From: Oscillospiraceae bacterium
GTDB taxonomy: Bacteria; Bacillota; Clostridia; Oscillospirales; Acutalibacteraceae
Direction of reading: 5' to 3'
Assembly (NCBI GenBank): GCA_015066325.1
Contig: SVOP01000008.1
Coordinates: 1 to 33,859 of the forward strand
Length of the DNA stretch: 33,859 bases
Made by a program: the position numbers and the translations under genes
The notes under the pieces: generated by a model
The model's database searches: none
The model's input: the letters and a program-made list of their open reading frames with translations, nothing else
What the model was told of the DNA's origin: nothing
Part shown: positions 3,950-23,804 of the stretch, one piece after another
Position numbering within the stretch: position 1 is the first letter of the stretch
Layout of the letters: every line of letters begins with the position of its first letter

Positions 3950-3965
3950 AATTACCTCGTTTTTA

Positions 3966-4116
3966 GATGCCAGTTACCAGATGCCGGATGCCAGACTTTA
4001 TGCATCAGCAACTGTTATCGTCTAAATGTTTACCACCCTACAATTAAGCCAAAAACAATTAGAAAAATAAAACTGTTATGACAATTCTGGTATCTGGGAT
4101 CTGGCATCTGGAATCT
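3966..4116. repeat. Inverted pair of heptad-repeat arrays (ATNCCAG-type) flanking a core of about 90 bp, between cdd and pdp
   Basis: Left 3966-3996: GATGCCA GTTACCA GATGCCG GATGCCA GAC. Right 4086-4116: TCTGGTA TCTGGGA TCTGGCA TCTGGAA TCT. The right array is the reverse-complement type of the left. Confidence 0.8.
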
Positions 4117-16406: not shown

Positions 16407-17672
16407 TTACATTTTCTCAACAACTGTTTTAACAGCATTCACGAAGATTTCTAAGCCTTTTTTGAGAGTTTCGTCATCTGCTAAAAGACAGGGCATAAGC
16501 TTAACAACGTCGTTATTACGTCCTGCTCTTTCAACGATAAGACCATTATCAAAGCATTCTCTTACAATTGCTCTTGAAACTGCATCGGGTTTGACTTTAT
16601 TACAGTCAACACCCCACATAAAGCCGATACCGCGAACATCGAATTTATCGTTGATTTCTTTAACCTTGCCGAGGTATTCCTTGATAATTTCGCCCTTGCG
16701 CTGAACCTCTTTTTCAACATTGTCTCTGAGCATAATTTCAAGGCCTGCTTTAGCGGCAACAATTGAAAGCTGACTGCCTCTGAAGGTGCCGTTATGCTCA
16801 CCGGGCTTCCACACGTCAAGCTCGGGCTTAAAGAGAACAAGAGCGAAAGGCATACCATAGCCACCGATAGATTTTGAAAGGGTAACAATATCGGGAATGA
16901 TACCTGCTCTTTCAAAGGAGAAATATGTTCCTGTTCTTGCAGAGCCAACCTGAATATCATCGCAAACAAGAAGAATATCGTTTCTTGTGCAGAATTCGCG
17001 AAGACCTTTAAGAAATTCAACACTGAAAACGTGAATACCGCCGTCTGCCTGAACGGGCTCAATGAAAACTGCTGCAGGCTTTGAAATACCTGAATGGTCG
17101 TCATCAAGAAGAGTCTGCATATATTCTATAACATCAAGCTCGGGGAACATATAGGGTGTGGGAATATGCGTTACGTCAGTAAGCACAACTCCTGCGCCCT
17201 CTCTGGAATCTCTGTCGGTAGTCATTGAAAGAGAGCCGAGGGTCATTCCGTGGAACGCACCCATAAATGCGAAAATATTATTTCTCTTTTTAACCTTTCT
17301 TGCAAGCTTGAGAGCCGCTTCAACTGCGTTTGTTCCTGTTGGACCGGGGAACTGAATTTTATAATCGAAGCCTCTGGGCTCAAGAATATTTTTCTCGAAA
17401 TACTCAATGAAATCTCTTTTTGCAGATGTGAACATATCAAGAGAATGAATTATTCCGTCGCTCTCAAGATAGCTGATAATCTGCTCCTTGATATAGTCAT
17501 TGTTATGACCATAGTTCAAAGCACCTGCACCGCAGAAAAAGTCAATATATTCCTTACCGTCCTCAGCAGTAATAATTGAACCCTTTGCTTTAGTGAAAAC
17601 TGCAGGGAAATTACGGCAATAGGAACGGACCTCTGATTCGTATTTGTCAAAAACAGATGTATTCATAAGCAT
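16407..17672 (-). CDS. ectB: Diaminobutyrate--2-oxoglutarate transaminase-like class III aminotransferase (EctB-like)
   Basis: FPGPTGTNAVEAALKLARKVKKRNNIFAFMGAFHGMTLGSLSMT, EPVQADGGIHVFSVEFLKGLREFC, GMPFALVLFKPELDVWKPGEHNGTFRG. Confidence 0.85.
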   Translation of the reverse strand: MLMNTSVFDKYESEVRSYCRNFPAVFTKAKGSIITAEDGKEYIDFFCGAGALNYGHNNDYIKEQIISYLESDGIIHSLDMFTSAKRDFIEYFEKNILEPRGFDYKIQFPGPTGTNAVEAALKLARKVKKRNNIFAFMGAFHGMTLGSLSMTTDRDSREGAGVVLTDVTHIPTPYMFPELDVIEYMQTLLDDDHSGISKPAAVFIEPVQADGGIHVFSVEFLKGLREFCTRNDILLVCDDIQVGSARTGTYFSFERAGIIPDIVTLSKSIGGYGMPFALVLFKPELDVWKPGEHNGTFRGSQLSIVAAKAGLEIMLRDNVEKEVQRKGEIIKEYLGKVKEINDKFDVRGIGFMWGVDCNKVKPDAVSRAIVRECFDNGLIVERAGRNNDVVKLMPCLLADDETLKKGLEIFVNAVKTVVEKM

Positions 17673-17771
17673 TTTCCTTTCAAATGCACCATATTATTCC
17701 ATTATCTTTGTCATTATATCACTTTGTTTTGAATATTCCAATAGATATTTTAAATTTTTAATCTTTAAAAT

Positions 17772-17958
17772 AACAAATTACAAATTAGAAATGCGAAATT
17801 TCAGGGCGCAAAAATGCGCCGTAGAAGAAATGTAAAGTGCAAGACCGTCCCCTACAATTATAATGCATCGCAAACCCGACACTTCTCACCCTTAACTTTA
17901 TAATCGGCTTGCCCCTTAATTTCTAATTTCTCATTTATAATTTATAATTTATAATATT
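17772..17958. repeat. Inverted pair of heptad-repeat arrays (AAATTAN-type) flanking a core of about 117 bp
   Basis: Left 17772-17799: AACAAAT TACAAAT TAGAAAT GCGAAAT. Right 17917-17958: TAATTTC TAATTTC TCATTTA TAATTTA TAATTTA TAATATT. Core contains GGCGCA-AAAA-TGCGCC (17805-17820). Confidence 0.78.
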
Positions 17959-17972
17959 TTCACCTATTTGTA

Positions 17973-18001
17973 TTGAAATTTGCTTTAAATTTTGTTATGA
18001 T
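17973..18001 (+). promoter_or_regulatory. Predicted sigma-A promoter of the glycan locus
   Basis: TTGAAA (17973-17978), 17 nt, TATGAT (17996-18001). Confidence 0.6.
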
Positions 18002-18058: not shown

Positions 18059-19855
18059 ATGGCACAGCCTATTAAACTTTACCCCCAGCTTACAAGGGTA
18101 TCGAGCCATTTTAAAAAGTACGATATTGAAGTACCGAAGGCTCTTTTAGAGATACGTCCTCAAAAGCCCGACTTAACTGATTTCCCCTACCCCCTTCCCC
18201 AGAAAAAGAAGGACTACACCTGCTTCTGCGAAGGCAGAAACGGTGTTATGTGGTACGGTTCAAACGGTGGCGTTACCCGTTACGACCCCAATACAGACAA
18301 TATTTATGATGTTGTTATGTATTTTGGTGCAAGAAGAGACCTTCTTGACAATAACGTTCACGCTCTCGTTCCTGATGACGAAAATGGCGTATGGGTTCTT
18401 ACCGATAAAGGCGTTACTCATATTGCTATGGTTAAAATGACTATGGAAGAAAAGTCCTACAAGCTTCTTGAGGAAACTCTTACATACGTTCAGCGTCACG
18501 GTATGGTAAGCCAGAAGCACCTTGCAGAGCCCGGCAACCTTAAATCAGCTCTCCCTTACGGACATTCTGATAACGACGGTAGCTTCTCCTCAGGCTATGC
18601 TATGGGTGAAATTTTCCGTTATGCAACGCTTAAAAGAGAAAAGGGAGATTATGCTCACGAAACTCTTGAAGCAAGAGATGTTGCTATGAGAGCAAGTGAA
18701 GCAAACCTTCTTCTTATGTATGTTGCAGGCCGTGGCGACGGCTTCGTTGCAAGAACCTATCTTACAAAGGACGAGCCTGTTCCCGATGACGGACTTTTCT
18801 ATAAGAAAAACGGCGCAACTGCCTCCTGCCTTAACACTACTGATGCGAGAAAGAAAAACATTGTAGGTCTTGAAGTTAAAGCAGATGCCCCTATTCCCGA
18901 AAGACTCCGTAAGCACTACACCTGCGATGGTTATGAGGATACTGATATTACATACAAAGGTGACACAAGCAGTGATGAAATTACTCATCATTACATGCAT
19001 CTTCTTGTTGCTCACGAATTTTTAGGCTGCGAAGATCCCGAATATGACGAGCTTCTCAAAACTGCCGCAAGAAACACAATGAATCACATCATTGACAACG
19101 GCTTCCAGCTCCGCGAAGCAAACGGCGAGCCTACAACCTGGGCAAAATGGAATGAGGAGTATTTCAACTCAGGTATGGGCTGGGCAGATGCCTGCCTTAA
19201 CTCTGCTGAGCTTCTTATGTTCCTGAGAGTTACAATGCACATCACAGGCGAAGAGGGCAGATTCCTCGAAACCTACAATATGCTTTGCAACGAAAAGGGT
19301 TATGCTGAATTAACAACAGGTCACTTTGATCGTTTCCATCAGGTTTGTCTTCAGGGCGGAATTGATGACCGTGAGGATATTATGTACGGCGACCATAACC
19401 TTGCAGTTCTTGCACTATGGGGACTTGCAACTCTTGAAACTGACCCTGAAAGAAAGAAATTATTCCTTGAGGGCTTCAGAAGCTGGAGATATTCTCTTGC
19501 TCCCGAATACAACCCCTGCTATGACTTCCCCTATTTCCTCTCTGACCCTGAGGCAAAGCCGGATGAGGAAAGAGTAAGAACCTGGTTCTATCGCTTCAAT
19601 GTTTCCCGCCTTGCAAGTAATGTATCTCTCACATCAAGGCGTGATTACCCCGTCCGCACATATATGGGCGGTTATAAAGAGGTTTCCGCTCTTCCCACTA
19701 ATGACGAAAGATTTATTGCAAAGCTTGACAGAAATCCTCTTGAGTATAAGGATGAGGACAGCGGCGGTGTTTACTGCGTTGAAAGCTGTTATGTTTTCAC
19801 TTTCGGCTACTGGTTAGGAAGATATTTCGGATTTATTGAGGAGGGTGAAGAATAA
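18059..19855 (+). CDS. Uncharacterised protein: short two-component-propeller-like N-terminus plus toroid-like (six-hairpin) domain
   Basis: GRNGVMWYGSNGGVTRYDPNTD and DENGVWVLTDKGVTHI resemble Reg_prop units; the remainder is helical and Trp/Glu-rich (GWADACLNSAELLMFLRVTMHIT). Stop overlaps the next start (TAATG). Confidence 0.65.
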   Translation: MAQPIKLYPQLTRVSSHFKKYDIEVPKALLEIRPQKPDLTDFPYPLPQKKKDYTCFCEGRNGVMWYGSNGGVTRYDPNTDNIYDVVMYFGARRDLLDNNVHALVPDDENGVWVLTDKGVTHIAMVKMTMEEKSYKLLEETLTYVQRHGMVSQKHLAEPGNLKSALPYGHSDNDGSFSSGYAMGEIFRYATLKREKGDYAHETLEARDVAMRASEANLLLMYVAGRGDGFVARTYLTKDEPVPDDGLFYKKNGATASCLNTTDARKKNIVGLEVKADAPIPERLRKHYTCDGYEDTDITYKGDTSSDEITHHYMHLLVAHEFLGCEDPEYDELLKTAARNTMNHIIDNGFQLREANGEPTTWAKWNEEYFNSGMGWADACLNSAELLMFLRVTMHITGEEGRFLETYNMLCNEKGYAELTTGHFDRFHQVCLQGGIDDREDIMYGDHNLAVLALWGLATLETDPERKKLFLEGFRSWRYSLAPEYNPCYDFPYFLSDPEAKPDEERVRTWFYRFNVSRLASNVSLTSRRDYPVRTYMGGYKEVSALPTNDERFIAKLDRNPLEYKDEDSGGVYCVESCYVFTFGYWLGRYFGFIEEGEE

Positions 19856-23763: not shown

Positions 23764-23804
23764 CCTATCTGCTAACCGCTATTTGCTAACCGCTATCCGC
23801 TAAT
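23763..23804. repeat. Period-7 tandem array (YGCTAWY-type), six degenerate units
   Basis: TCCTATC TGCTAAC CGCTATT TGCTAAC CGCTATC CGCTAAT. Confidence 0.8.

Follow-up and report, generated by a model that had tools for sequence, protein, structure and literature searches.

The window is a 33,859-nucleotide stretch of DNA from an Oscillospiraceae bacterium. The element under study occupies a divergent spacer, with a class-III aminotransferase gene (16407-17672, minus strand) on one side and, on the other, an operon that starts at 18059 and has a GH38 alpha-mannosidase further on. Gut MAGs of ruminants and other herbivores labelled Clostridia, Oscillospiraceae, or Ruminococcaceae contain relatives of the downstream gene. 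The element consists of inverted heptad arrays around a core of about 113 bp and spans 17768-17950. Its parts, the neighboring promoter-like sequence, and two other period-7 arrays of the window are as follows.

17768-17802, plus strand: left arm, five heptads AAATAAC AAATTAC AAATTAG AAATGCG AAATTTC running towards the cap, with the register set by the cap hairpin.
17803-17820, plus strand: left cap, AG plus the hairpin GGCGCA-AAAA-TGCGCC; at other loci of the genome, this cap also stands behind arms built of other unit families.
17805-17820: the GGCGCA-AAAA-TGCGCC hairpin itself.
17857-17864, no strand assigned: ATTATAAT palindrome, a motif usually located 2-4 nt inside a cap, from direct reading and the cap survey.
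17865-17898, minus strand: probable half-element remnant in the core, AAGTTAA GGGTGAG AAGTGTC then GGGTTTGCGATGC, from direct reading.
17899-17915, minus strand: right cap, GGGGCAAGCC (a GGC-AA-GCC mini-hairpin) then GATTATA.
17916-17950, minus strand: right arm, five heptads AAATTAT AAATTAT AAATGAG AAATTAG AAATTAA.
17973-18001, plus strand: promoter-like TTGAAA-N17-TATGAT of the downstream operon, outside the element (-35-like sequence 17973-17978, TATGAT 17996-18001).
3965-4116, no strand assigned: second element, inverted CAGATGC-type arms without a GGG cap, absent from the orthologous spacer of the sister species G020.
23765-23803, minus strand: solitary heptad array TAGCGGA TAGCGGT TAGCAAA TAGCGGT TAGCAGA.

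The right array is exactly as the sequence-only reading had described it. The left array is also present and GGCGCA-AAAA-TGCGCC does lie inside the core, but that reading had counted four left units where the register gives five, the extra one being AAATAAC, and had put the core at about 117 bp. The lag-7 score of the right arm was reached by 0 of 2000 dinucleotide shuffles of the spacer, and none of 2000 such shuffles had two separated windows at the left-arm score. The caps differ at the two ends, GGCGCA-AAAA-TGCGCC on the left and GGC-AA-GCC on the right. The window copy appears to be a longer composite than the minimal element described below, and its core seems to hold what is left of another half-element. 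The segment at 17865-17898 is probably this remnant, and its GGGTTTGCGATGC resembles the GGGTCTGCGACGC cap. Elsewhere in the core, GACCGTCCCC at 17843-17852 resembles the GGGGACGGTTC-type repeats around a RAYT-like gene of G020. The right array ends upstream of the -35-like sequence, as had been claimed; the distance is about 22 bp, or 17 bp if counted from the last A/T-rich partial unit, and not about 15 bp. A similar TTGAAM-N17-TANAAT is readable by eye in several sister species that lack the element, which suggests that the promoter is probably older than the insertion at this spacer. The solitary array at 23765-23803, of the TAGCGGA/TAGCAAA family, directly follows a terminator-like hairpin.

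The genome measures 1.88 Mb, of which about 0.92 Mb was covered in stretches. Periodicity was measured in 271 kb, comprising the window and 20 stretches of other contigs picked regardless of hits. This sample gave 12 intergenic lag-7 hits compared to a mean of 0.15 in shuffles, and one hit in coding DNA. By far the leading intergenic period was 7, and besides it only its multiples 14 and 21 clearly stood out. The enrichment of intergenic DNA at lag 7 over shuffled sequence that had been anticipated is present.

Arms oriented to a GGG junction fall into one register, (N-A-R-T-K-R-N)n, across many loci, and arrays with a single neighboring GGG share one register, different unit families included. 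The CAGATGC arms of the second element fit this common register, with A or T at position 4, so the earlier description of their heptamer as unrelated to AAATTAN holds only in part. Among 86 distinct arms, A occupies position 2 of the heptad in 87-90% and T occupies position 4 in 74-84%, and position 3 is mostly A or G. In 61 of these 86 arms, ART is found at only one phase with respect to GGG, the one adjoining the unit start. Exactly five units are present in 39 of the 69 arms that pass the grammar; five is the mode, rather than the variable unit number expected of a slippage locus. The selection of grammar-passing arms favors the grammar, and the independent check was therefore a genome pattern search with a reversed-pattern control. 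The arm-cap pattern has 74 matches in the window's genome compared to 0 for the reversed pattern, and the corresponding counts in other genomes are 152 and 3 (G005), 131 and 0 (G020), and 104 and 0 (G011). Matches are present in 18 of 22 genus genomes. The 152 matches in G005 are largely of one dialect (AATTGAA), often in plus/minus pairs about 150-250 bp apart, and these copies are a recent burst. AAATTAN arms are found at more than ten other loci, which refutes the idea that the unit is specific to this locus, and near-identical cassettes occur at several loci of G020. The idea that the arrays are all-frame stop cassettes was dropped because the AAGTGGC family contains no stop codons.

A hairpin of at least three pairs is present in 90 of 105 distinct caps compared to 27% of shuffled caps. 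The stems have many sequences, mostly with a TNC triloop (GNA on the opposite strand), and the hairpin is commonly followed by ATTATAA(T) and often by ATTATAAT. Unit families and cap hairpins combine freely, in many combinations. Most elements have similar arms and some have different unit families on the two sides; left/right arm similarity is 0.62 compared to 0.55 for permuted pairs (p = 0.009). Simple arm pairs enclose cores of 36-170 bp. The minimal element is about 110 bp long and consists of an arm of about five N-A-R-T-K-R-N units (about 35 bp), GG, a mini-hairpin, a few bases, ATTATAAT, and the mirror image of these parts. In compact copies, the two caps meet at the ATTATAA(T)/ATTATAAT palindrome. 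DNA folding z-scores are -3 to -6, well below shuffles, and a single strand of a compact copy could form a heptad stem with two small hairpins. Larger composite repeats lie beside or inside heptad elements at L163:9280-9930, L165:4456-5106, and L071:12699-13052. They contain nested hairpins whose layout is kept while the stems change (GGACC-stem-GGTGGTGGGT, GGGAGGGGGACC).

Comparison with sister species shows whether individual sites are occupied. None of the 11 sister species compared has the window element in its orthologous spacer. Fifteen loci are comparable between the window's genome and G020, and 13 of them are occupied in one species only, nine in the window's genome and four in G020; the other two are occupied in both, by different arrays. 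Nine of ten sisters have heptad arms in the spacer upstream of a gene whose product starts with MPIKLPDELPAV; in six of them both arms are present, and the units and caps usually differ between species. The units there are AAATTAN in the window's genome, AAGTGGC in G020, and TAATTAC/GAATTAC-like in G008, and G005 has GAATGCA on one arm and GAATTAA on the other. At L189:6834-7917, G020 has an IS200-like insertion where the window's genome has a heptad array. In five sisters (L114, L117-L120), the orthologous spacer upstream of the aminotransferase gene contains two GAAGCAGCGTCTTGCCGGTTTGCAAGACCTTCTC-like copies separated by about 110 bp, a pair that was either lost from the window's genome or never in it. 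The GAAGCAGCGTCTTGCCGGTTTGCAAGACCTTCTC-carrying sister spacers gave no Rfam match in the three loci scanned.

These data bear on the origin first proposed for the element, in which an arbitrary 7-mer expands locally by slippage and then undergoes inversion or strand switching. The units in an arm are imperfect copies of each other and the dialects are species-specific, so slippage or conversion probably homogenizes the arms. The text of PMC4679880 where it deals with such repeats cites Mrazek et al. 2007 for the finding that, in most bacterial genomes, heptanucleotides outnumber the other long simple repeats. As the source of the elements themselves, however, local expansion is very improbable. 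It does not account for the five-unit mode, the single register across families with a common phase to the GGG-hairpin cap, the common caps and same units at many loci, or the complete empty sites, which include all 11 orthologous spacers. The companion argument of the sequence-only reading is sound: period and layout are conserved while the unit varies between loci, and copy-and-paste of one invariant sequence fails to explain this. The units differ between species even at orthologous sites.

The elements are not evenly distributed among spacers. Their density per kb of spacer is 1.17 in convergent, 0.60 in tandem, and 0.41 in divergent spacers (two genomes sampled, simple ORF calls). Of 94 arms that face a gene end, 37 start no more than 5 bp from the stop codon, compared to the 5-8% expected from random placement in array-free spacers. 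Two accounts are compatible with this bias: insertions may be tolerated at gene ends, or the elements may have a role in mRNA ends. The latter would make the element a bidirectional terminator or an mRNA 3'-end stabilizer whose sequence drifts while its pairing holds, and occupation of the MPIKLPDELPAV-gene spacer by differing sequences in most species is in line with such a function. We nevertheless regard a structural function as unlikely. The orthologous sites of the sister are mostly empty, the spacer of the window copy is divergent with a promoter downstream of the element, and neither the window nor three loci with orthologous-site elements gave an Rfam match at the gathering threshold. 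The heptad grammar, the GGG junction, and ATTATAAT are also more specific than pairing needs, and insertions purged from genes can yield the same hugging of stop codons. The bias to stop codons and convergent spacers probably reflects tolerated insertion sites.

A search for the enzyme that moves the elements did not find an autonomous partner or transposase linked to the arms among the RAYT/Y1 and IS630 types tested. Arm pairs with a spacing above 600 bp number only three, of which one contains no long ORF and two span ORFs. IS630 (DDE_3) was tried because of the possible TA ends and was rejected as the mover, with 0 of 22 genomes positive. The first base of the outermost unit is enriched for T (p = 8e-6), which is consistent with, and not proof of, a TA target. 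A TA target-site duplication is possible, and it could not be fixed because the flanks are A/T-rich and the junction alignments ambiguous. Mobilization as single-stranded DNA by a Y1 (HUH) transposase such as RAYT, as in REPINs, would suit the inverted pairs of hairpin units, and the small hairpins, intergenic location, and convergent/tandem preference recall the REPs of PMC3733652. GTAG also follows one cap type, and this is GGCGCA-AAAA-TGCGCC only. Against this, the caps start with GG and most carry neither the GTAG nor the CGTC tag of REPIN/RAYT palindromes. The window's own genome, which is 76.5% complete, gave no Y1_Tnp match, and only seven of the 22 genus genomes scored above the cut-off, whereas arms are present in 18. 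The RAYT-like Y1 transposase gene of G020 (L181:2787-3534) is flanked by GGGGACGGTTC repeats and not by heptads. Y1/RAYT was rejected as the mover on the lack of a match in the own genome and the setting of the G020 gene amid other repeats, and we judge a REPIN-like identity to be quite unlikely.

With moderate confidence, we read the window element as a member of a dispersed, non-autonomous, MITE-like foldback family whose ends diverge and homogenize within a fixed grammar. The elements have inverted terminal arms, modally of five heptads, with unlike arms in some. They are small, non-coding, multi-copy, and polymorphic for insertion, as the core lengths, the 74 matches, and the 11 empty spacers indicate. 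In this mechanism, the element would insert as a unit and be moved in trans by a putative enzyme that reads a folded or periodic end and not one fixed sequence. After insertion, the units and both arms may be homogenized by conversion or slippage among copies, and such homogenization would give every species its own heptad dialect. Several points speak against the MITE-like reading. Neither a transposase linked to the arms nor a definite target-site duplication was found. The unlike arm families of some elements are odd for a classical terminal inverted repeat that is recognized by sequence. To explain the MPIKLPDELPAV-gene spacer, occupied with different units in nine of ten sisters, insertion would have to be repeated or the element replaced wholesale.

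The grammar is not confined to the genus. In other families of the phylum, grammar and reversed matches number 18 and 1 (G062), 10 and 0 (G094), and 14 and 0 (G131). The pattern is absent from most of the 300 genomes sampled, and a few genomes match the reversed control too and were therefore left out of the grammar-positive count. Plasmids of Trichormus variabilis have 7 as their commonest period (10 hits, the next period having 4), and ART is present in about 7 of 10 arrays, which in this small sample is not above the rough chance of about 0.47 per array; the plasmid result is no more than suggestive. Heptanucleotide arrays in bacteria have been noted for years as slippage products or possible regulatory repeats, and to our knowledge they have no clear origin. 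A much more tentative proposal is that the elements belong to a class of mobile or self-propagating intergenic DNA, with ends defined by a period-7 grammar and a structure-conserved mini-hairpin instead of a fixed sequence, in which dialects shift while recognition persists. The grammar recurs in other families, and this class might underlie the long-noted bacterial excess of heptanucleotide repeats. If many heptanucleotide arrays prove to be the termini of a single type of insertion element with a common grammar, their origin becomes testable. Such a mobile element would be recognized by periodicity and structure while its sequence turns over, and sequence-based repeat finders would miss it.

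A search of the literature on repeats of this clade found nothing relevant. Like MITEs, the elements are short, non-coding, and dispersed, with inverted terminal arms of about 35 bp and presence/absence polymorphism between species. Unlike MITEs, their arms are period-7 arrays with a sequence that varies between copies and sometimes between the two ends, their hairpin caps are swapped among unit families, and a partner transposase and target duplication are not established. Cyanobacterial STRRs are heptamer direct repeats. Direct repeats of the heptamer TAACTGA occur in Beggiatoaceae, Cyanobacteria, and Bacteroidetes, according to the sections of PMC4679880 on these arrays. Those are likewise intergenic 7-nt arrays, and TAACTGA, reverse-complemented and rotated to CAGTTAT, fits N-A-R-T-K-R-N, a fit of letters that could be due to chance. 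In contrast to the elements here, the same sections present the Beggiatoaceae repeats as nearly all direct, with one inverted case, and do not describe a capped inverted-pair architecture or a grammar. The REP/REPIN and RAYT systems (PMC3733652, PMC3116915) share the inverted pairs of hairpin units and the intergenic location between convergent or tandem genes; the present elements differ in having heptad arms, no consistent GTAG/CGTC tag, and no cognate RAYT near the arms. The MITE with a minisatellite in Porphyromonas gingivalis, as outlined in PMC4596501, is similar in combining tandem repeats with a small mobile element. The minisatellite of that outline lies within the MITE, whereas the heptad arrays described here are the ends themselves.
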